Source: a virus. Taken from it: 29,633 nucleotides of DNA. Of this stretch, positions 7,494 through 29,435 are shown piece by piece (within the stretch, counting starts at the first letter, position 1; every line of letters begins with the position of its first letter). Below the pieces are notes generated by a model. That model ran no database searches. It worked only from the letters and a program-made list of their open reading frames with translations, and was not told the origin of the DNA. The stretch is from positions 2,471 to 32,103 of the IMG/VR virus record IMGVR_UViG_3300030101_003411. One strand, given 5' to 3'. A program made the translations under genes and the position numbers.

Positions 7494-9035
7494 ATGAACA
7501 ATACAATAGTTAAGCATCTTAACTTCGGTGAAGATGCAAGAGGCAAGATATATGCCGGTATAGAGAAATTAACAAACGCTGTTAGTTCTACATTAGGAGC
7601 TAGTGGAAAGTGTGTTATAATGGAAGACTTAAATGGTAATCCTATTATAACTAAAGATGGGGTTACAGTAGCAGAAAGTGTTATATTATTAGATGCAGTG
7701 GAAAACATCGGATCTAAACTTATAAAACAAGCTGCTAAAAGAACTGTAAAAGAAGCGGGTGACGGAACGACAACCGCCACGGTTTTAGCGCATGCTATAC
7801 TAACAGAAGCTTATAAAGCGATAAAATCGGAAAATCCACGTCAATTAAAAGAAGGTATTAATTTGGCTGTTGAAAAAGTAGTGCGTTATCTTGAGAAAAA
7901 TTCTTCAAAAGTTGAAGGTGATAAAATAAAACAAGTAGCTACTATCTCAGCCAATAACGATTCACAAATAGGAGAAATAATATCTACTGCGTTTAAAATG
8001 GTAGATGAAACTGGTATAGTCTTGATGGAAACTCACGACATGCCAGACACTATTGTGGAGAAAATAGAAGGTGTTCAATACGAAGAAGGTTTTTATAGTA
8101 ACCACTTTGTTACTAATAAAGAAAAAAATACAGCAGAATTAGATAATCCTCTAGTTTTAATACTAGAAAGCACATTAGATAACATTAGAAAAGTACAAAA
8201 CGTACTAGAACATGTTATAAAAAATGGAGAAAGCTTGTTAATTATAGCTGATGTAGACCCTCAAGTTGGAAATGCTTTAGCAATGAATAAAATTAAGGGT
8301 AATATTAAGGTAAATATTATAAATACACCACCATTTGGGGTAAATAAAAAGACAACTTTACAAGATTTAGCTTTATTAACAGGAGCTACAGTGATAAATG
8401 AGCAATTAGGAGACGATTTAGACTTGATAAATGTTGATCATTTAGGTAAATGTGTAAAATCTACCTCAACAAATGAAGAAACTGTGCTACAATTGGAAAA
8501 AATACCAGAAGAAGTGCAAAATTTAGTAAAAAAATTAAAATCTGAAATAAAATCTTTATCAAATCCTAATTCTATAACAAATCAAGAGAAAAGAATTGCT
8601 AGATTGTCCGCAAAAGTAGCTGTTGTCAAGGTTGGTGCTAATTCTGAGGTAGAATTAAAAGAAAAACGTGATAGAGTAGAAGATGCTATTTGTGCTACAA
8701 AAGCCGCGATTAAAGAAGGTATAGTACCTGGAGGTGGTATAGCGTTATTAAACGCTTCTCAATCTATAAATGCTAAATCAAAAGCAGAAGAAGTTTTATT
8801 GGAAGCTATTAAAGCTCCTTATTCAACTATTTTACAAAATGCTGGTATAAATGATTATGAAACACCAACCTCTAAAGGTAAAGGATTGAATGTGGTTACA
8901 GGTAAAACGGTAAGTATGGTAAAGTCCGGAATAATAGATCCTTTATTAGTAACTAAAAGCGCTTTAAAAAACGCGGCTTCTGTAGCTACTACTATTTTAT
9001 CTACTGATTGTGTAATTAATAATATAAGAGCATGA
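7494..9035 (+). CDS. groEL: Phage-encoded chaperonin GroEL
   Basis: A 513-aa group I chaperonin that refolds proteins in an ATP-driven ring with GroES. Family landmarks are in place: TLGASGK near residue 33 (usually TLGPKGR), ITKDGVTVA at 52-60 with the Asp matching E. coli D52, GDGTTTATVLA at 89-99 with the Asp matching D87, and RVEDA at 394-398 with the catalytic Asp matching D398, then PGGG at 412-415. It is about 35 residues shorter than bacterial GroEL and lacks the Gly/Met-rich C-terminal tail, ending VINNIRA. The altered GASGK loop and missing tail mark it as a divergent phage form rather than a recent host copy. It overlaps groES by ATGA. Likely clients are the large capsid or fibre proteins; that is inference. 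Confidence 0.96.
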   Translation: MNNTIVKHLNFGEDARGKIYAGIEKLTNAVSSTLGASGKCVIMEDLNGNPIITKDGVTVAESVILLDAVENIGSKLIKQAAKRTVKEAGDGTTTATVLAHAILTEAYKAIKSENPRQLKEGINLAVEKVVRYLEKNSSKVEGDKIKQVATISANNDSQIGEIISTAFKMVDETGIVLMETHDMPDTIVEKIEGVQYEEGFYSNHFVTNKEKNTAELDNPLVLILESTLDNIRKVQNVLEHVIKNGESLLIIADVDPQVGNALAMNKIKGNIKVNIINTPPFGVNKKTTLQDLALLTGATVINEQLGDDLDLINVDHLGKCVKSTSTNEETVLQLEKIPEEVQNLVKKLKSEIKSLSNPNSITNQEKRIARLSAKVAVVKVGANSEVELKEKRDRVEDAICATKAAIKEGIVPGGGIALLNASQSINAKSKAEEVLLEAIKAPYSTILQNAGINDYETPTSKGKGLNVVTGKTVSMVKSGIIDPLLVTKSALKNAASVATTILSTDCVINNIRA

Positions 9036-9292
9036 AAGCAGTAGGTAAATATATAGTTATACAACCTAATAAAGAAAAAACTACTAAGACAAAAGGTGGT
9101 TTAATCTTAGGTGAAGAAAATAGAGAAGATATAAGATATAGAATAGCAGAGGTATTAGAAGTTGGAAGTGAAGTAAATGTTATAAAAAAAGGAGATACAG
9201 TGTGTTATGACAAGCATGCAGGATTTGATGTTGAAATCAAAGATAAAATTTATACAGTAATAAAAGAATTTGATATAGTTATAGTTTTATGA
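9032..9292 (+). CDS. groES: Phage-encoded co-chaperonin GroES
   Basis: An 86-aa Cpn10 protein, the lid for the GroEL ring. The N-terminal strand GKYIVIQPNKEK, the mobile-loop region TKTKGGLILGEENRED that binds GroEL, the EVLEVGSEVNVIKKGDTV core and the C-terminal IYTVIKEFDIVIVL all follow the family order. It is slightly shorter than bacterial GroES (about 95 aa). The roof loop region (YDKHAGFDVEIKDK) retains the usual AG element. It is coupled to groEL upstream and to the metalloprotein gene downstream by ATGA overlaps, so a single transcript delivers both partners. Confidence 0.93.
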   Translation: MKAVGKYIVIQPNKEKTTKTKGGLILGEENREDIRYRIAEVLEVGSEVNVIKKGDTVCYDKHAGFDVEIKDKIYTVIKEFDIVIVL

Positions 9293-10221: not shown

Positions 10222-10706
10222 GATTAAGTTCTATTGACTTAAAAGAACTTGGATTATTGAAACATTATCGTATAATACGTAAATGGGCATGCAAAACGTG
10301 TAATATTAAAGATGCAGATCTTGAACTAATTATATACTTAGAGTCTATTGATTACTTTAAAAAACAAGATTTTAAAGATGGATCTTATTCTTATAGTTGG
10401 GATAATAGACGTTGGAATAGATTATTAAAAGAAGGTTGGATAGTTGTTTGGAGAAAAAGAAATAGAACAACTCAAAAATACAATTTATACAAAGTATCAA
10501 CTAAAGCAAAACATTTAATAGCAAGAATATATAGAATGATGTTAGGTGAAGAAGAAATACCAGAAGGAACATCTAACAAGATTATGCAAAGAATAACATA
10601 TTCAGATAAAGTTTTAGCAACAGCTATTACTAAAATGAATAAAGACATTAGACAAAATTATGGCTTACAAACAAAAAGGGTTTCCGCAACATATAAGTAC
10701 AATTGA
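10218..10706 (+). CDS. Winged-helix (MarR-like) DNA-binding protein
   Basis: A 162-aa basic protein. The segment LELIIYLESIDYF, then a YSYSWDNRRWNRLLKEGW helix and a basic hairpin VVWRKRNRTTQKYNLYKVS, matches the helix-turn-helix plus wing of MarR-type regulators. I recall similar proteins in the structural regions of other Bacteroidota phages, but not an assigned role. It has two cysteines (ACKTC) near residue 26 that could sense redox or bind metal. Lying in the late block, it may be a late regulator or a virion DNA-binding protein. It overlaps the upstream gene by ATGA and, unusually, the next gene by 47 bases. Confidence 0.6.
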   Translation: MRLSSIDLKELGLLKHYRIIRKWACKTCNIKDADLELIIYLESIDYFKKQDFKDGSYSYSWDNRRWNRLLKEGWIVVWRKRNRTTQKYNLYKVSTKAKHLIARIYRMMLGEEEIPEGTSNKIMQRITYSDKVLATAITKMNKDIRQNYGLQTKRVSATYKYN

Positions 10707-11400
10707 CAGATCACCTGCCCAAGGCTGGGATTGGTGGGATGAAAACGTACAAGATCAAGGCTATGGTGGAGCTGCTTTAAGTGGAGCTGCTACAGGTGCT
10801 CAAATAGGATCTATAGTTCCTGGAGTTGGAACTGCTGTTGGTGGTATAGTAGGAGCTGTTGCTGGTATTGGAATAAATGCTTTTAAAAATAATAAATCAG
10901 ATGAACCTGCTGAAAAAGTAGATCAAATGAAATATCACCGTCAAGAAAGAGCTGCTTTAGAGGCAGAAGCAGCAGCAAGAGAATCTCCAGAAGAAAAACA
11001 AGAGAGATGGCAAAAGGCAACTGACAAAAGGAGTTATGATAAATTTTTAGATGCAAATATTGAAAGAGGTTCAATTAACCCGGGTTTAATGGCTAAAGCT
11101 CAACAGACTAACAAACTAAAAGGTGAAGGAAGATATAATCCTAACCCAGCTAAACCTGTAGATCAAAGTACAACTCATTTAACAAATTGGAACGAAATGC
11201 TAAAAAAATCATCACCAGCTACGCAATTAACATCACCTAATAGAGGAGGAAGAGCTGTAGAAAGTAACACGCTAAATCCTATGTCGTCTACTTTATCAGC
11301 TTTGAATGGAAGTGATTCAACTAATTTAGCTGTAAAATATAATCAGTTTAATAATATTGCACAAAACCTTAATGAAGGTTTACAATCAGATAATACTTAA
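10660..11400 (+). CDS. Glycine-zipper membrane-active virion protein
   Basis: A 246-aa protein. Residues 36-73 form a glycine-zipper segment (GAATGAQIGSIVPGVGTAVG and onward) with Gly or Ala at four-residue spacing, as in pore-forming or DNA-ejection proteins. After it comes a charged helical region (RAALEAEAAARESPEEKQER) and a disordered tail holding SSPATQL at 184-190. Another SPAQG lies at residues 18-22. The start at 10660 is inside the preceding gene, but the frame has no better start and the N-terminus MAYKQKG resembles neighbouring proteins. A likely role is membrane penetration during genome entry, by inference. Confidence 0.6.
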   Translation: MAYKQKGFPQHISTIDRSPAQGWDWWDENVQDQGYGGAALSGAATGAQIGSIVPGVGTAVGGIVGAVAGIGINAFKNNKSDEPAEKVDQMKYHRQERAALEAEAAARESPEEKQERWQKATDKRSYDKFLDANIERGSINPGLMAKAQQTNKLKGEGRYNPNPAKPVDQSTTHLTNWNEMLKKSSPATQLTSPNRGGRAVESNTLNPMSSTLSALNGSDSTNLAVKYNQFNNIAQNLNEGLQSDNT

Positions 11401-18576: not shown

Positions 18577-20616
18577 ATGATAGGTAATGCTCTTCCGATT
18601 CCGTGGTTGAGGAGCATATATAGTTCCTCTGGCCCTTCAGGTCCAAAACCTTTTATATTAAAAATAGATACTAACAATACCGCAGGTGGTCCTAACTATC
18701 CATTTGGAATTTTTGCATCTCCGTTTTATACATATGATTATACTGTAGACTGGGGAGATGGAACTATAACAAGTCACACTGGTACAAGTTCTCATACTTA
18801 TAATACTCCAGCCGTGTATGAAGTTAAAATATCTGGTGAGTGTCCAACATTAACTTTTGGTCAGTGGAATGTAACTTATGGATCTAATTATATAATTGAT
18901 ATAATACAATGGGGTGACGTGGAGTTTAAAAGTTTAAAACAGACTTTTAAATATTGTAGTTTTTTAGGAAATCCAGGTGGAAGTAATATAACACCTGGGG
19001 TACCTTTAACAGCTACTGATACTCCTACATTTGCTAGTGATTTTGCTTTTGATGGTCTTTACGAGTGGGCTTCTAACACATCCTTAACATCAATACCTAA
19101 CCTCAACAATTGGCAATTACCTAGTACATTAACTAGTCTTGAAAGGTGTTTTAGTGAAATGAAATATTTTGACTCTAGTGTTTCAGACTGGGATGTTTCT
19201 AACGTAGGTAATTTTGAAAGAATGTTTTTCTTTTGTAGAAATTGGAAAAACGGAGGAGAAGATTTAGATAATTGGAAAGTTGGTAAAAACTATACTGGTG
19301 ACTTAAATTTTGATGAAATGTTTTACTATTGTGAAGAAATAGTAGACATGAAAATGTGGAAACAAGATTTGTATTTGCTGAACATAAATTTTATAAGTAC
19401 TAGATTTATGTTTTACTTTTGCCAAAAGTGGAAACTAGAACTAGAAAACTGGGACAACGCCTCAGTTAAAATTAATAATATAGAAGGCATGTTTAGTTCT
19501 GTTGGTTTTTATTATGGTGGAGATAATAGACCAAGTGGAGGACGACAGTACACTGATGAAGGTTTAAAAACTGATTTTTTTGGTTGGGATTTTAATACTA
19601 ATAAAACCTCTCTTAGAGCTTTGTTTCAAAGTGCTCATTTTGACGCGACTTTTAACGCTAATTTAGATGGTCATACAGCAACTAATATTACTGATTTTGA
19701 CTTGATGTTTTCGAGTACTTTCATATGTTCTCCAACTAGCGTAGATAATTGGGTTTTAGGAAGTACACCTAATATAACTATGAGAGAAACTTTTTCTGGT
19801 AGACCTTTTAATAGGTGGCCTGGCCCACAAGAAAGAAGAGGTTTAGATTGGAGAGGTGATTTTGGATCAGTACAAACACTAAACGGTTGGGATGTTTCTA
19901 ATGTTATTAACTTTACAAGATGTTTTAACAGCGCTCAATTCAACACTGGTCCCGATGATTGCAAACCTATAATAGGTAATTGGACTTTATGTACAGATCC
20001 AAACGTTACTCTCGTTATAGAAAGAATGTTTAGAGATAGTCAATTTAACGACACTCTTGTAAATGATCCTAGCAAATGGAATTTAAGTAGAGTTACTAGT
20101 TTATTTGAAATATTTGGAGGTGCAGGAGGCACTAGATTTAACCAATCTTTGAGTAATTGGAATACTAGCACTATTACAAATATGAGGCAATTTGTTTATT
20201 ACAATGTGTATTTTAATCAAGATATTAGTCATTTTGATATGTCAAATGTAACAGACGTAAACAGAATGTTTGATAAGACACAATCTTATTCATACGGTAT
20301 GGATTGGATGGAAATGCCTCTTATAACAGACGGTACTAGATTTCAGTATCAATGGAAGTTTGATACTCAAAAATACACAGACACTTTAAATGCCTGGGCT
20401 TTATACTATTACAATAGAGTACAATCAGGTTTAACTGTTCCTCAAAATATAGATATGACTTTTAACACTATAAGTTATTGGGGTGTTACAAATTACTTTA
20501 TAAATGGGTTAAATACTTTGCCTAATGGTTTAACAACAAGAGATTATTTAACAACATCCACATCAGCAACAGTTCCTGGATTAGGTTGGAATTTATTAGA
20601 CGGAGGAGGTATATAA
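18577..20616 (+). CDS. PKD plus BspA-type repeat surface protein, 679 aa
   Basis: After the N-terminal IPWL...SGPSGP motif comes a PKD-like domain (TVDWGDG, THTYNTPAVYEVKISG style residues at about 60-95). Then follow degenerate BspA/DUF285 repeats with the pattern W-(D/N)-V/T-S-N-V...F-x-x-x-F, for example SDWDVSNVGNFERMF, NGWDVSNVINFTRCF, SNWNTSTITNMRQF and SHFDMSNVTDVNRMF. BspA-type repeats are right-handed solenoids used for binding to surfaces or other proteins. Here it is probably a receptor-binding fibre or tail spike. It ends QSGLTVPQN, then LGWNLLDGGGI. The next gene starts in the stop codon. Confidence 0.85.
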   Translation: MIGNALPIPWLRSIYSSSGPSGPKPFILKIDTNNTAGGPNYPFGIFASPFYTYDYTVDWGDGTITSHTGTSSHTYNTPAVYEVKISGECPTLTFGQWNVTYGSNYIIDIIQWGDVEFKSLKQTFKYCSFLGNPGGSNITPGVPLTATDTPTFASDFAFDGLYEWASNTSLTSIPNLNNWQLPSTLTSLERCFSEMKYFDSSVSDWDVSNVGNFERMFFFCRNWKNGGEDLDNWKVGKNYTGDLNFDEMFYYCEEIVDMKMWKQDLYLLNINFISTRFMFYFCQKWKLELENWDNASVKINNIEGMFSSVGFYYGGDNRPSGGRQYTDEGLKTDFFGWDFNTNKTSLRALFQSAHFDATFNANLDGHTATNITDFDLMFSSTFICSPTSVDNWVLGSTPNITMRETFSGRPFNRWPGPQERRGLDWRGDFGSVQTLNGWDVSNVINFTRCFNSAQFNTGPDDCKPIIGNWTLCTDPNVTLVIERMFRDSQFNDTLVNDPSKWNLSRVTSLFEIFGGAGGTRFNQSLSNWNTSTITNMRQFVYYNVYFNQDISHFDMSNVTDVNRMFDKTQSYSYGMDWMEMPLITDGTRFQYQWKFDTQKYTDTLNAWALYYYNRVQSGLTVPQNIDMTFNTISYWGVTNYFINGLNTLPNGLTTRDYLTTSTSATVPGLGWNLLDGGGI

Positions 20617-21362: not shown

Positions 21363-21967
21363 TGAAGTCGTTATATAATTTTATAATAAAACCATATAAA
21401 CAAAGATATAACAATGAAATTAATGTTGGGGATAAAAAGCTAATATTAAATTCTAATATCGAAATTCACAGTTCAGTTGACAAAAGAGCAGTTGTAGTTT
21501 CTACTCCAGCTGCTTTTAATACTAAAATTAAAGTAGGTGATATTGTTTATGTTCATCATAATATATTTAGAAGATACTATGGTGTGAGAGGAGAAGTTAG
21601 AAACAGCAGTAGTTATTTTAAAGATGATTTGTTTTTTTGTGAACCACATCAAATATATTTATATAAATCAAATGAAAAATTAGAATGTAATTTAGATTAT
21701 TGCTTTGCTTGTCCTGTTGAAAATGACAATGATTTAAGCTTAGAAAAGGAAAAACTAATGTTAGGTGTTATGAAGTACTGTAGTAGTTCCTTAAAGGATC
21801 TAGGAATAAATCCTGGAGACCTCATCACTTTTTCACCAGATTCAGAATTTGAATTTATAGTGGAAGATGAATTATTATATTGTATGAAATCTAAAGATAT
21901 AGCACTAAAACATGAAGACAAAAGAAACGAGAAAAAATATAATCCAAGCTGGGCGAAAAGCAGTTGA
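21362..21967 (+). CDS. GroES-like protein, possibly two barrel halves, 201 aa
   Basis: RAVVVSTPAAFNTKIKVGDIVYVHHNIF resembles the central strands of Cpn10 proteins (VxSVG...VKVGDxVxx) and is split here as RAVVVSTPAAFN then KIKVGDIVYVHHNIF (about residues 42-69). A second, more diverged half is near GINPGDLITFSPDSEFEF and LLYCMKSKDIAL, matching the Cpn10 C-terminal pattern GDxVxF...YxxxxxxDIxA. Whether it forms a lid ring or is only a related fold cannot be told from sequence. It is unlike the 86-aa GroES. It ends with an unusually long overlap (56 bases) into the next gene. Confidence 0.55.
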   Translation: MKSLYNFIIKPYKQRYNNEINVGDKKLILNSNIEIHSSVDKRAVVVSTPAAFNTKIKVGDIVYVHHNIFRRYYGVRGEVRNSSSYFKDDLFFCEPHQIYLYKSNEKLECNLDYCFACPVENDNDLSLEKEKLMLGVMKYCSSSLKDLGINPGDLITFSPDSEFEFIVEDELLYCMKSKDIALKHEDKRNEKKYNPSWAKSS

Positions 21968-22184
21968 TGAATTAATAAAAGTAGCAAAAGAACCTATAGT
22001 TGACACAGGAGAAGATGTTTCAGCAGATAGGCTTAAAAACGCAGCTGCAACTAAAAAGCTTTGTATTATGGATGCTTTTGAAATACTACAAAGAATTGAA
22101 GAAGAAGAAGATAGGTTAAGTGATAAACCAAAGGAAGTAAAAGAAGAAAGAGTTTTCAAATTTGCAGAAGGGAGAAGTAGATGA
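21912..22184 (+). CDS. Small terminase subunit candidate, 90 aa
   Basis: MKTKETRKNIIQAGRKAVDEL begins a helical protein with DTGEDVSADRLKNAAATKKL and IMDAFEILQRIEEEEDRL, ending FKFAEGRSR. It immediately precedes the large terminase and overlaps it by ATGA, the usual place for TerS. No clear helix-turn-helix is visible, and 90 aa is short for TerS, so this is based mostly on position. It starts inside the GroES-like gene. Confidence 0.5.
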   Translation: MKTKETRKNIIQAGRKAVDELIKVAKEPIVDTGEDVSADRLKNAAATKKLCIMDAFEILQRIEEEEDRLSDKPKEVKEERVFKFAEGRSR

Positions 22185-24409
22185 GTTATCAACAAACTTT
22201 AGTTGAAGAATTAAACGATTATATAAATCCTAAGATTATAAAAAAGAAAAATAAAACTAAGTCTTGGGATTATGGATATAATAGCGATTATGATTTTATA
22301 GTTATTAGCAAAACTGGAAAAATTGGAAAGATCATTGAAATTCAAAACCTCCGTATTGCATTACCAGCGGAAAATGAACCTTTTAAACGAAGCGAAAAGC
22401 AAGAGGAACAGTATTGGGAGCAAAAGGAATATCCAAAAGAGTTAAAAAGAATTAAAAGTAGATTTGATTGGGAAGAATATCCTATTGATTTTAAAGAAAA
22501 ATGGTTTGATTATATAGATGAAGAATTTAAAAAACGAGATGAAGGGTATTGGTTTTATAATAACGGTATCCCTACTTATATTACAGGTACTCACTATATG
22601 TACTTGCAGTGGTCAAAAATCGACGTTGGAGCTCCAGACTATAGAGAGGCAAATAGACTCTTCTTTATATTTTGGGAAGCGTGTAAAGCCGATAGCCGAT
22701 GTTATGGAATGTGCTATCTCAAGAATAGACGGAGTGGCTTTAGCTTCATGTCATCCGCAGAGCTTGTTAACCAAGCCACTATATCTTCAGACGCAAGATT
22801 CGGTATTCTTTCAAAGACTGGAGCAGACGCTAAGAAAATGTTCACAGATAAAGTTGTCCCGATATCCGTTAACTATCCGTTTTTCTTCAAACCAATCCAA
22901 GATGGTATGGATCGTCCTAAAACCGAACTGGCTTATAGAGTACCAGCTTCAAAACTTACTAGACGTAAACTAGAATCTAAAGAACAACTAAAAGAATTAC
23001 AAGGTCTTGATACAACTATAGACTGGAAAAATACGGGAGACAACTCTTACGATGGTGAGAAATTAAAAATATTAGCACACGACGAATCAGGAAAATGGGA
23101 ACGACCAGACAATATATTAAACAACTGGAGAGTTACAAAAACTACATTAAGACTAGGCCGAAGAATAGTAGGCAAGTGTATGATGGGCTCAACTTCAAAC
23201 GCATTAGATAAAGGTGGAAACAATTTCAAAAAATTATACTACAATTCAGACGTTACAAAAAGAAATAGAAACGGACAAACAAGTTCTGGCCTCTACTCTC
23301 TTTTCATCCCTATGGAATGGAACTACGAAGGATACATGGATACTTTTGGACTTCCTGTATTCACTACGCCAGAAAATCCAGTCAAAGGAGTCGATGGTCT
23401 CCCAATTAACATTGGAGTTATCGAGCACTGGGAAAACGAAGCAGATGGACTTAAACAAGACCAAGACGGTTTAAATGAGTTTTATAGACAATTTCCACGT
23501 ACTGAAAAACACGCGTTTAGAGATGAAACTAAATCTAGTCTATTTAATTTAGTTAAAATATACCAACAAATAGATTACAACGAAGAGATACAAAACGTAT
23601 CTTCAATAAGTAAAGGTAATTTTCAATGGGTTGGCGGTATAAAAGATACTACAGTAAAGTTCTATCCTAACTCTAATGGAAGATTTTATATATCCTGGGT
23701 TCCTGACGCTTATTTACAAAATAAAATAATATTAAAAAATGGACTTAAATACCCTGGAAATGATCATCTCGGAGCATTTGGTTGCGACTCTTATGATATT
23801 AGTGGTACTGTCGACGGCAAAGGGTCTAAAGGATCACTTCACGGACTGACAAAATTTTCTATGGAAAATGTACCACCTAATCACTTTTTTTTAGAATATA
23901 TAGAAAGACCACCTACTGCTGAAACTTTTTTTGAAGATGTACTTATGGCGTGTGTTTTTTATGGTATGCCTATATTAGCAGAAAACAATAAACCTAGATT
24001 GTTATATTATTTTAAAAGAAGAGGATATAGAGGTTACAGTATCAATAGACCTGATAAACTTTATAACAAACTATCTGTTGCAGAAAGAGAAATTGGTGGA
24101 ATACCTAACTCCAGTGAAGATGTTAAGCAAGCTCACGCTGCAGCTATTGAGACTTTCATAGAAGAAAGCGTAGGTGAGCAACCTGATGGCACTTATGGTG
24201 ATATGTATTTTCAAAGAACGTTAGAAGATTGGGCTCAGTTTGATATTAACAATAGAACTAAACACGATGCTTCTATTAGTTCTGGTTTAGCTTTAATGGC
24301 TTGTAATAAAAACAAATATAGACCAAGAGCTAAGATTAATTTACAACCAATAGATATAGGTATTAGAAGATATGATAATAAAGGATTAATTTCAAAAATA
24401 ATAGAATAA
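22181..24409 (+). CDS. terL: Terminase large subunit (packaging ATPase and nuclease)
   Basis: A 742-aa motor that pumps DNA into the head and cuts concatemers. The ATPase domain has a deviant Walker A at about 181-188 (KNRRSGFS), Walker B LKILAHDE (295-302, acidic D301/E302) and a coupling motif GSTSN (336-340). The nuclease domain starts near residue 480, with the acidic strand GAFGCDSYDIS around 532-541 (Asp-536). The N-terminal region has the NNGIPTYITGTHYMYLQWSKID stretch, split here as NNGIPTYITGTHYMY then LQWSKID, which I associate with crAss-like and other Bacteroidota phage terminases. Codon use and GC in the middle (about 22680-23480) differ from both ends. The start is fixed by the ATGA overlap. 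Confidence 0.93.
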   Translation: MSYQQTLVEELNDYINPKIIKKKNKTKSWDYGYNSDYDFIVISKTGKIGKIIEIQNLRIALPAENEPFKRSEKQEEQYWEQKEYPKELKRIKSRFDWEEYPIDFKEKWFDYIDEEFKKRDEGYWFYNNGIPTYITGTHYMYLQWSKIDVGAPDYREANRLFFIFWEACKADSRCYGMCYLKNRRSGFSFMSSAELVNQATISSDARFGILSKTGADAKKMFTDKVVPISVNYPFFFKPIQDGMDRPKTELAYRVPASKLTRRKLESKEQLKELQGLDTTIDWKNTGDNSYDGEKLKILAHDESGKWERPDNILNNWRVTKTTLRLGRRIVGKCMMGSTSNALDKGGNNFKKLYYNSDVTKRNRNGQTSSGLYSLFIPMEWNYEGYMDTFGLPVFTTPENPVKGVDGLPINIGVIEHWENEADGLKQDQDGLNEFYRQFPRTEKHAFRDETKSSLFNLVKIYQQIDYNEEIQNVSSISKGNFQWVGGIKDTTVKFYPNSNGRFYISWVPDAYLQNKIILKNGLKYPGNDHLGAFGCDSYDISGTVDGKGSKGSLHGLTKFSMENVPPNHFFLEYIERPPTAETFFEDVLMACVFYGMPILAENNKPRLLYYFKRRGYRGYSINRPDKLYNKLSVAEREIGGIPNSSEDVKQAHAAAIETFIEESVGEQPDGTYGDMYFQRTLEDWAQFDINNRTKHDASISSGLALMACNKNKYRPRAKINLQPIDIGIRRYDNKGLISKIIE

Positions 24410-26821
24410 ATGCAAATAGAAACTAATTATAGTGCTTTTCCTAATCAGGTTGTACCTGTAGCAGAGAAAAACTCTTTAGATTATGGTTTACAGGTTGGTA
24501 GAGCTATAGAAGGAGAGTGGTTTAGAAACTATAGAGGTGGTTTAGGTGCTGCATATCAAAATGGAGGTTATGCAGTTAACTTCAACGCTTATCATACTTT
24601 AAGATTATATGCTAGAGGAGAACAACCAATACAGAAATACAAAGATGAATTATCAATTAATGGAGATTTATCTTACTTAAACTTAGATTGGCAACCTGTT
24701 CCTATTATTTCTAAATTTGTAGATATAGTTGTTAATGGGATGTCTGAAAGAAATTATGAAGTAAGAGCGTTTGCTTGTGATCCAGAGTCTACAAAAAAAC
24801 GTACTGAATATGCTAGCTTGTTAGCTAGGGATGTTGAAGAAAGAGAATTATTTGAACAACTTAGACAAACGTTAGGTATAGATATAAGAATGGAAGAATC
24901 TAAATTATTAGCTTTAGAATCTCCAGAAGAACTTCAATTGCATTTAGCTTTAGATTATAAACAATCTGTAGAAATAGCTGAAGAAGAATTAATAAACAAT
25001 GTGCTAGATAAAAACAAATTTGACTTGGTTAGAAGAAGGTTTGTTTATGATTTAGTAACTTTAGGTATAGGAGCAACAAAAACAGACTGGAACAAATCTG
25101 AAGGTATTACAGTAGATTATGTAGACCCTGCAAACATGGTTTATTCTTACACTACTGATCCTAATTTTGAAGACATATATTACGTAGGCGAGGTTAAATC
25201 TGTTAGTTTAGAAGATTTAAAAAGACAATTTCCTTATTTAACTGATGAGGAGATGAAGCAAATACAACAATATAGAGGCAATGAAGAGTATTTAAGAAAC
25301 TGGAGTGGAAGAAACGATAATAACACTGTACAGGTTTTATATTTTGAATATAAAACATACATAGACCAAGTGTTTAAAATAAAAGAAACTCCAAATGGAT
25401 TAGTAAAAGCTCTAGAAAAACCTGACACTTTTGATCCACCTGAAAGTGATAACTTTGAAAGAGTTTCAAGATCTATAGAAGTATTATATAGCGGTGCTAA
25501 AATATTAGGACATCCATTAATGCTAAAGTGGGAAATGGCTAAAAATATGACAAGACCTAATTCTAACATTTCCAAAGTAAATATGAATTATGTTATCTGT
25601 GCTCCAAGAATGTATAAAGGTAGAATACAATCTTTAGTTGGTAGAATAACAGGTTTTGCTGATATGATACAGTTGACTCATTTAAAGTTACAGCAAGTAT
25701 TATCTAGAATGGTACCTGATGGAGTTTATTTAGATATGGATGGTTTAGCTGAGGTTGATTTAGGAAACGGAACTAACTATAACCCAGCAGAAGCGTTGAA
25801 TATGTATTTTCAAACTGGTAGTATTGTTGGTAGATCAATGAATCAAGATGGTGAAATGAACCATGGTAAAGTGCCAATACAAGAATTACAGTCTAGCTCT
25901 GGCGGCGCTAAAATACAAAGTCTTATTCAAACTTATCAATACTATCTACAAATGATAAGAGATGTTACCGGACTTAACGAAGCTAGAGATGGTAGCACTC
26001 CAGATAAAGACTCATTAGTAGGTTTACAAAAGTTAGCTGCTGCTAATTCTAATACTGCAACAAGACACCTAGTTCAAGCAATGTTATACTTGTCTTCTAG
26101 AATATGTGAAAACATAACATATAGAGTAGCAGATTCTTTAAGTTACCCTTTAACTTATGAAGCTTTAAAAGATAGTTTAAATAGATATAACACTGCTACG
26201 TTAGAAGAACTAAAAGAGTTGAGCCTACATGACTTTGGGATTTACTTACAGTTGGAACCTGATGAAGAGGAAAAAGCTATGTTAGAACAAAACATACAAA
26301 TGGCATTGCAACAACAACAAATAACACTTGAAGACGCGATTGATTTAAGGGAAATACCAAACATAAAGTTAGCGAATCAAATGTTGAAGCAAAGAAGAAA
26401 GAAAAAACAACAAGAAGATCAAGCTCAACAACAGCAGATGATACAAGCTCAAGCTCAAGCTAATGCTGAAGCGGCTGAAAAAGCAGCTATGGCAGAGGTT
26501 CAAAAACAACAAGCTTTAGCTCAGACAGAATTACAAGTTGAACAAGGAAAAACTCAATTTGATATTCAAAAAATGGAAGTTCAAGCGCAGATGAAGCAAA
26601 AACAAATGGAACAACAGTTTCAGTATGACATGCAACTTAAGCAAATGGATTTACAAGAGATATCAACTAGAGAGCAGTTTATAGAAGATAGAAAAGATCA
26701 AAGAACTAAATTACAAGCCTCTCAACAAAGTCAATTGATTAATCAACGTAACGAAAACATGATGCCAATTAACTTTGAAGATCCAAACTATGCGGAAACA
26801 GGAGGTCCTGGATTAGCATAA
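24410..26821 (+). CDS. Portal protein, 803 aa
   Basis: The twelve-subunit ring through which DNA enters and leaves the head. Position right after TerL, length, and sequence support this. YVDPANMVYSYTTDP (237-251) and ITGFADMIQLTHLKLQQV, followed by YLQMIRDVTGLNEARDGSTP, match portal wing and clip regions. The C-terminal 150 residues form a Gln/Lys-rich coiled coil (QQQQMIQAQAQANAEAAEKA) that could be the barrel or crown. It is longer than T7 or lambda portals, as in crAss-like phages. The coding frame starts immediately after the TerL stop. Confidence 0.88.
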   Translation: MQIETNYSAFPNQVVPVAEKNSLDYGLQVGRAIEGEWFRNYRGGLGAAYQNGGYAVNFNAYHTLRLYARGEQPIQKYKDELSINGDLSYLNLDWQPVPIISKFVDIVVNGMSERNYEVRAFACDPESTKKRTEYASLLARDVEERELFEQLRQTLGIDIRMEESKLLALESPEELQLHLALDYKQSVEIAEEELINNVLDKNKFDLVRRRFVYDLVTLGIGATKTDWNKSEGITVDYVDPANMVYSYTTDPNFEDIYYVGEVKSVSLEDLKRQFPYLTDEEMKQIQQYRGNEEYLRNWSGRNDNNTVQVLYFEYKTYIDQVFKIKETPNGLVKALEKPDTFDPPESDNFERVSRSIEVLYSGAKILGHPLMLKWEMAKNMTRPNSNISKVNMNYVICAPRMYKGRIQSLVGRITGFADMIQLTHLKLQQVLSRMVPDGVYLDMDGLAEVDLGNGTNYNPAEALNMYFQTGSIVGRSMNQDGEMNHGKVPIQELQSSSGGAKIQSLIQTYQYYLQMIRDVTGLNEARDGSTPDKDSLVGLQKLAAANSNTATRHLVQAMLYLSSRICENITYRVADSLSYPLTYEALKDSLNRYNTATLEELKELSLHDFGIYLQLEPDEEEKAMLEQNIQMALQQQQITLEDAIDLREIPNIKLANQMLKQRRKKKQQEDQAQQQQMIQAQAQANAEAAEKAAMAEVQKQQALAQTELQVEQGKTQFDIQKMEVQAQMKQKQMEQQFQYDMQLKQMDLQEISTREQFIEDRKDQRTKLQASQQSQLINQRNENMMPINFEDPNYAETGGPGLA

Positions 26822-27917: not shown

Positions 27918-29435
27918 ATGGGATTTGTACAAGGCGGGAGTTTTCCTGCGTCATTAAGCCCTGCTGCACAAAAAATGACACTATCAACAAACTTTTTAAG
28001 TTTTGATGATAATAGTGGAAATGATTTTGCTCAGCAGTATCTACCAGAGCTTTACGAAGCTGAAGTAGAGAGATACGGAAACAGAACTATTTCTGGTTTC
28101 TTAAGAATGGTCGGAGCAGAAATGCCAATGACCTCAGATCAAGTAATCTGGTCTGAACAAAATAGATTACACATTGCTTATCAAAAAGCTACAGTTTCTG
28201 CTTACACTGCTGGTGTTTTGGATGCTGACATTGAAGTTGAACTTGACCTTTCTAACACCTCTGGTGGTGCTGACGCGCCTTCAGGTGCTGTAAGAGTAGG
28301 ACAAACTATTTTAATGGCTGATAATGCAACTGGACTAATCGTTCAAAAAGGTTTAGTTCAAGGTGTGACTGATGGTGGCGGTAAGCCAGCTGATACATTA
28401 ATAGTTAAGTTTTACGGAACTGCTACTAATGCTTTACCAACAACTACAGCTGGAATAAACTTATATGTTTATGGTGCTGACTTTGGAAAAGGTGCAGTGG
28501 GAATGGACGGTTCTATTGAACCACAGTTCACTCAATATGCTAACAATCCAATTATCATTAAAGACAACTTCCAGATCAATGGTTCTGACACTGCTCAAAT
28601 CGGTTGGGTTGAAGTTGCTACAGAAGATGGTCAATCAGGATACCTTTGGTATTTAAAATCTGAATCTGAAACAAGATTAAGATTTGAAGATTATCTTGAA
28701 ATGGTGATGGTTGAAGCTTTACCAATGAACAACGCGGCTTATAACACTGCTGTCAATTACGACTTTGGTGGTGCTGGGCCTACAGCTTCTAACATTAATG
28801 TTAAAGGTTCTGAAGGTTTATTTGCTGCTATCGAAGATAGAGGTAATGTTTATTCTGGATTTGCTGGAGCTGCTGCTCCTGGTTCTGGTGCTTTAGGTGA
28901 TTTCGATCAAATACTAAAACAACTAGATAAGCAAGGTGCTATTGAAGAAAACATGCTTTTCTTATCAAGATCTACAGCTCTTGACTTTGACGATATGGTT
29001 GCTGCACAAGCTGGTGGAGGTTATGCTTCTACTCAGTCTGCTTCATATGGTTTATTCGAGAACGATGGAGATATGGCTCTTAACTTTGGTTTCTCTGGTT
29101 TTAGAAGAGGTTCTTATGACTTCTATAAAACTGACTGGAAATATCTAAACGATGCTTCTTTAAGAGGTTTATCTAAAGAGATTGACGGTGTTATGATACC
29201 AGCTGGAACTACAACTGTTTATGATCAAATGCTTGGATCAAATATTAGAAGACCTTTCTTACACGTAAGATATAGAGCTTCTGAGACTGAAGATCGAAGA
29301 ATGAAATCATGGATCACTGGTTCTGTAGGTGGTGCATACACTGACACTTTAGATGCAATGACTGTAAGTTTCTTGTCTGAAAGATGTTTAGTAACTCAAG
29401 CTGCTAACAATTTCGTATTGTTTAAAGGAGCTTAA
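27918..29435 (+). CDS. Major capsid protein, 505 aa
   Basis: The likely HK97-fold capsid subunit. It follows the scaffold-like gene, is about 500 aa long and starts MGFVQGGSFPASLSPAAQKM. The Gly/Ala-rich core (ADIEVELDLSNTSGGADAP) and the C-terminal WITGSVGGAYTDTLDAMTVS suit a capsid fold. Codon use is richer in G and C than in neighbouring genes (TTC, AAC, GAC, GCT), as expected for the most abundant protein. A stem-loop terminator lies 11 bases after the stop. No maturation cleavage site can be assigned by eye. Confidence 0.85.
   Translation: MGFVQGGSFPASLSPAAQKMTLSTNFLSFDDNSGNDFAQQYLPELYEAEVERYGNRTISGFLRMVGAEMPMTSDQVIWSEQNRLHIAYQKATVSAYTAGVLDADIEVELDLSNTSGGADAPSGAVRVGQTILMADNATGLIVQKGLVQGVTDGGGKPADTLIVKFYGTATNALPTTTAGINLYVYGADFGKGAVGMDGSIEPQFTQYANNPIIIKDNFQINGSDTAQIGWVEVATEDGQSGYLWYLKSESETRLRFEDYLEMVMVEALPMNNAAYNTAVNYDFGGAGPTASNINVKGSEGLFAAIEDRGNVYSGFAGAAAPGSGALGDFDQILKQLDKQGAIEENMLFLSRSTALDFDDMVAAQAGGGYASTQSASYGLFENDGDMALNFGFSGFRRGSYDFYKTDWKYLNDASLRGLSKEIDGVMIPAGTTTVYDQMLGSNIRRPFLHVRYRASETEDRRMKSWITGSVGGAYTDTLDAMTVSFLSERCLVTQAANNFVLFKGA

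Follow-up and report, generated by a model that had tools for sequence, protein, structure and literature searches.

The locus examined here encodes both partners of a chaperonin, and the question it raises is what such a pair does in a phage: whether it works as the host pair does or as a folding machine of a different build, and for which proteins. The window, as we call the whole stretch of 29,633 nucleotides that was analysed, corresponds to bases 2471-32103 of a 58,065-base virus record (IMGVR_UViG_3300030101_003411). The host group of this virus is marine Bacteroidota, and by the sequences of its terminase, portal and head genes the phage belongs with the flavobacterial podoviruses (phi38:1-like). 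Residue positions follow the Salmonella/E. coli GroEL numbering. The window GroEL was compared with its 80 closest phage relatives (71 distinct clade sequences for the salt bridges) and with 79 cellular GroELs.

Table 1. Features of the window discussed in the text
Feature	Position	Strand	Description
Phage GroEL, 513 aa	7494..9035	+	ATG 7494 to TGA 9035; catalytic residues kept, ring-ring interface lost
Single-domain GroES, 86 aa	9032..9292	+	GGLIL mobile loop, short roof; ATGA overlap (9032-9035) with GroEL stop
679-aa protein	18577..20616		DUF285 repeats, 113.7 bits (over Pfam cut-off); weak PKD match
Second co-chaperonin, 201 aa	21362..21967	+	Two tandem GroES folds (predicted), Cpn20-like; N-domain gp31-like
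90-aa gene between tandem co-chaperonin and terminase	21912..22184	+	Homologue in 141/160 loci; no family match
Large terminase subunit	22181..24409	+	PHROG 6681, 2.1e-165; constant neighbour of tandem co-chaperonin
Portal protein	24410..26821	+	PHROG 6547; Pfam P22_portal, 28.3 bits
505-aa virion head protein	27918..29435	+	PHROG 13704 head and packaging, 6.6e-88

The GroEL/GroES pair, its relatives and its origin

An earlier note on this DNA had described a complete, divergent and coupled GroEL/GroES pair, and this description holds: the two genes overlap by 4 bp and both products score well above the Pfam cut-offs. GroEL matched Cpn60_TCP1 with 199.6 bits (cut-off 34.3) over profile positions 1-488 and PHROG 5725 'chaperonin groEL' with 454 bits, while GroES matched Cpn10 with 53.1 bits (cut-off 21.1). 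A full-length Cpn60 domain with its catalytic residues, together with a dedicated GroES-type co-chaperonin carrying a mobile loop, identifies the pair as a group I chaperonin.

The ATP-site aspartates mentioned in that note are all present (D52, D87, D398 and D495) and are invariant across all 80 relatives, and loss of ATPase activity was rejected on this ground. Two further features it had pointed out were also confirmed and proved to be clade-wide. GASGK replaces GPKGR at positions 32-36 in the window GroEL and in 79 of its 80 closest relatives, but in none of the 79 cellular GroELs; neither the window GroEL nor any of the 80 relatives has the GGM tail, compared with a GGM or GMM tail in 74 of 79 cellular sequences. 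GASGK was considered as the mark of a new mechanism; although clade-wide, it was not decisive, since the loop also differs in other phage GroELs (GASGR in Panino and phi40:1, GPSGR in immuto). Neither feature is probably the functionally telling change; such changes probably lie in the ring-ring interface, the apical groove and the GroES loop.

GroELs 59-71% identical to that of the window are present on 80 IMG/VR contigs, and each of the 107 environmental loci in which the two genes were found has groEL followed by groES, overlapping or abutting. The pair is thus a fixed trait of the clade and no quirk of the window genome. Its order is the opposite of the groES-groEL order of the Salmonella operon.

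Could the protein have another use altogether? For phage phi38:1, mass spectrometry found GroEL not only in infected cells but also in free-virion samples (PMC13288928), as would suit a moonlighting or structural protein, such as a virion component, that is no folding machine. Virion samples may, however, contain lysate proteins, and a GroEL whose ATPase residues are all invariant and which is always coupled to a GroES with an intact mobile loop makes this reading very improbable.

Recent capture of the pair from a host, with use like that of the host pair, would have parallels: the phage GroELs of Va1 and D509 (Vibrio) and SJC03 (Bacteroides) cluster with cellular sequences of related hosts. 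In contrast, the window GroEL is only 38-43% identical to the closest cellular GroELs, compared with 59-71% within its own phage clade. In the tree, its clade is monophyletic with a support of 100/100, sits on a long branch and is not nested in Bacteroidota GroELs; branches in this tree are long, and how the phage lineages branch at depth is unreliable. Since the gene order is reversed as well and the changes in the GroES-binding groove are fixed in the clade, host capture was rejected as extremely improbable.

The terminase of the window is 64% identical to that of Manatee Spring MW202828, 44% to those of Flavobacterium elemo phages, 42% to that of Maribacter phage Panino and 37-39% to those of Cellulophaga phages. 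These values, with the shared order tandem co-chaperonin - terminase - portal, place the window phage in the phi38:1-like group (Pervagoviridae, elemo and kin). The Pervagoviridae (Cellulophaga phages phi38:1, phi40:1 and Calle), the elemo phages, Panino and MW202828 carry the same three genes as the window, namely GroEL, a single GroES and a tandem co-chaperonin adjoining the terminase. Their GroELs are nevertheless only 37-40% identical to that of the window, and the arrangement varies: in phi40:1 and Calle the single GroES lies 5' of GroEL in the replication region with one gene between, and in elemo phages the pair sits on the other strand, unlike in the window. MW202828, with its 64% identical terminase, shares only 37% identity in GroEL, 41% in GroES and 35% in the tandem co-chaperonin; the chaperonin genes appear either to evolve faster than the terminase or to have been replaced.

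For these relatives, the GenBank entries name GroEL and the majority of the GroES genes. Within a group to which phi38:1 belongs, Nishimura et al. 2017 described GroEL from 36 genomes (PMC5332604), and the core genes of Pervagoviridae include Cpn10 (PMC8776804). The pair is therefore standard in phi38:1-like flavobacterial podoviruses and already known, and the earlier view of a full pair as notable stands only in part: the pair is complete, but the whole phi38:1-like/elemo group has one.

Ring interface, apical groove and mobile loop

Both inter-ring salt bridges, K105-D435 and R452-E461, are kept in 79 of 79 cellular GroELs compared with 7 of 71 distinct clade sequences. The window GroEL has lost both, with A435, S452 and N461 at the interface, and in 76 of the 80 relatives 5-6 residues are deleted from the helix Q region (459-476). 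When conservation was compared over every 13-residue segment, 107-119 and 461-473, where inter-ring contact residues lie within or next to the segment, were among the three that drop most. The interface residues were chosen from the GroEL literature and fixed ahead of the conservation test; as a set they lost more conservation than random equatorial sets (p = 0.002), with overall conservation about equal within the clade (0.67) and the cellular set (0.70).

With the inter-ring contacts gone, the window GroEL probably works as a single heptameric ring instead of two. Loss or replacement of ring-ring contacts is shared with the single-ring chaperonins phiEL, OBP, AR9, mtHsp60 and the SR1 mutant (PMC7185714, PMC9598537, PMC5934643, PMC5575113, PMC12696368). 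Mainly single-ring mtHsp60 is without the same two salt bridges (PMC5575113), SR1 is a published parallel for lost ring-ring contacts (PMC12696368), and phiEL has a loop instead of helix Q and rings that come apart with ATP (PMC7185714). The window GroEL differs from this group in a nucleotide site nearer to that of GroEL; phiEL, OBP and AR9 are also reportedly independent of a co-chaperonin, whereas the window phage retains two. The seven clade members that keep both salt bridges speak against a single ring.

An alternative is an ordinary double-ring GroEL/GroES whose interface has drifted and is held by other contacts, the 201-aa protein being a gp31-like lid mainly for host GroEL. Double rings of phiEL use different, 1:1 contacts (PMC7185714), and by analogy a novel kind of ring contact may exist here too. 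Moreover, the Va1, D509 and immuto phage GroELs have altered ring-interface residues with the length of the helix Q region unchanged. Against a double ring stand the deletion in the contact helix and the high variability of segments 461-473 and 107-119 in an otherwise conserved protein, which argues against a fixed replacement contact. We consider the double-ring alternative possible but rather doubtful.

The lid and its binding site have changed as well. In the apical groove, which binds the GroES loop and substrates, the alterations are largely fixed, with V264M and L234Q in all clade members and V263A and Y203H in most. The first residue of the GroES mobile-loop tripeptide (position 25) is Leu in 108 of 108 clade sequences; most cellular sequences have Ile at this position, and Leu is found in some of them too. 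A single-ring GroEL mutant is known to trap GroES, and the I25L and I25F variants of GroES appear functional with it (PMC5575113). The roof segment is 8-10 residues long in the small GroES of the clade compared with 12-17 in cellular GroES, and the window protein lacks most of the roof hairpin. By analogy with gp31, another phage lid, which enlarges the cage (PMC5780408), the reduced roof may provide a larger cage.

A predicted tandem co-chaperonin beside the terminase

The 201-aa protein matches nearly all of the 200 profile positions of PHROG 13932 'co-chaperonin GroES', to which the small GroES aligns over the last 90 positions only. Its AlphaFold2 model (pLDDT 84, pTM 0.78, 49-sequence alignment) has chloroplast Cpn20 of Chlamydomonas as best PDB match (7ekq_R, 201 columns, E 5e-5, TM 0.54); next in rank are another chain of that entry, 7ekq_Q, and then single GroES structures. 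The N-terminal 104 residues modelled alone (pLDDT 85.5) gave T4 gp31 as the top PDB match and a leading list composed entirely of co-chaperonins (Foldseek probability ~1, E only ~0.007). Sequence comparison of this domain with GroES by hhalign returned nothing convincing, and the predicted fold is the sole support for its assignment. In the C-domain, GroES is recognised by profile; it scores above the Pfam Cpn10 cut-off in phi19:3, phi46:3 and phi38:1. Two GroES folds in the 201-aa protein are therefore found on predicted models.

Within the window clade, a loop region of 30 residues with an L-I-I-like motif is present in the N-domain, and the C-domain loop is short and without a GG-I-x-L-type motif; the C-domain may thus be without a working mobile loop. 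In the tandem C-domain of phi19:3 and phi46:3, the loop is longer and includes a hydrophobic stretch, a possible mobile loop.

Two known lids are informative for comparison. Chloroplast Cpn20 has two GroES folds per chain and occurs with the single-domain Cpn10 in the same organism, as the two lid types do in the window phage, and Cpn10 and Cpn20 build mixed lids (PMC5780408). In contrast to Cpn20-type proteins, with a mobile loop in both domains, the clade's protein carries the long loop in its N-domain only, and the two share 13% identity; their likeness is probably convergent. The closest PDB match of the N-domain alone, T4 gp31, folds the capsid protein gp23 together with host GroEL (PMC5780408). 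Gp31 is a single-domain protein and T4 supplies no GroEL of its own, whereas the tandem lid has two domains and its phage does have a GroEL. The 201-aa protein, as modelled, may function like Cpn20 without being Cpn20. That it is a tandem lid is the firmest part of our overall reading and appears quite likely from the predicted folds.

The tandem gene lies 5' of the large terminase with one 90-aa gene between them in 139 of the 140 environmental loci with room, and the same neighbourhood occurs in elemo, MW202828, phi38:1, Panino, phi19:3 and phi46:3. The complete genomes of phi19:3 and phi46:3 encode the tandem protein (201 aa) and a single GroES (85 aa) and no GroEL, and thus the tandem gene need not partner a phage GroEL. 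This accords with the double-ring alternative and its lid for host GroEL, but all complete GroEL-bearing relatives of this family among the phages searched also carry the tandem gene. Gundel_1 has none of the three genes. The constancy of the tandem lid in the head module, with GroEL in some lineages only, suggests that the lid could serve host GroEL too. No match to the tandem gene was found in 296 Bacteroidota genomes, a search that had no positive control and shows little.

The tandem domain structure is absent from the annotations examined for Pervagoviridae, elemo, Panino and MW202828. GenBank lists the protein as hypothetical in phi38:1 (gp089; L195 6001-6585) and MW202828 (L083 14159-14722), and other records label it cpn10 or GroES. 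The uncharacterised 129-aa protein BFVD S0A2F3 of Cellulophaga phage phi14:2, which also has GroEL, gave a co-chaperonin fold match with an E-value of 0.009.

Combined reading and candidate clients

The reading we prefer, at a probability of roughly 60%, is that of a group I chaperonin system in three parts, all phage-encoded (GroEL, single GroES and tandem lid), likely with a single ring, two lids and head proteins as clients. In this model, which reads ring number, lid affinity, lid composition and clients from homology, conservation, gene order and predicted folds, GroEL would hydrolyse ATP and act as a single heptameric ring, at least in the ATP cycle. The coupled GroES would cap the ring, contacting it by the GGL(L/I)L mobile loop. 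Leu25 of GroES and the GroEL changes Y203H, L234Q, V263A and V264M would weaken lid binding, allowing a single ring to release the lid without a second ring, and the smaller roof would leave more room in the cage. The tandem lid from the head-packaging module would act like T4 gp31 or chloroplast Cpn20, either alone or in a joint lid with the small GroES, in which three double chains and one single chain, for instance, would give seven domains.

A natural single-ring GroEL cycling with exactly this seven-domain mixed lid (three tandem chains and one single GroES chain) is a speculative and unlikely extension. If true, the phage would have arrived independently at an equivalent of the lid that Cpn10 and Cpn20 form in chloroplasts, adapted to the folding of a capsid protein with which the host cage copes badly.

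Head proteins are the likely clients, with the 505-aa protein as first candidate. The earlier note had called it a capsid protein; the PHROG match establishes a head and packaging virion protein, and its identity as the major capsid protein is probable. Judged from gene position, capsid protein is a plausible client, and the positional support is strengthened by the tandem co-chaperonin gene adjoining the terminase. A head-protein client is the weakest part of the overall reading, with about even chances. Three large fibres had also been proposed as clients: the 679-aa gene, with its DUF285 repeats, possibly encodes a fibre or adhesion protein, but a Pfam search with the 670-aa and 697-aa genes gave no match above cut-off, which leaves the fibre label of these two unsupported. 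The 90-aa gene beside the terminase might, at a guess from its position, encode the small terminase subunit.

While the GroEL/GroES pair is known, the three-part composition and the joint changes in interface and lid look new; the literature searched gave no description of an interface-stripped GroEL combined with a Leu25 lid and a chloroplast-like tandem lid. The system offers a small natural test of two questions: can a chaperonin that depends on GroES run its cycle in nature with one ring only, and how does a tandem lid, with its even number of domains, match the sevenfold symmetry of the ring? For a widespread group of marine phages, it also supplies a concrete hypothesis about clients.

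Elsewhere in the window, the product of positions 10660-11400 (246 aa) contains a glycine-zipper stretch and shows weak similarity to TraT, below the Pfam cut-offs.
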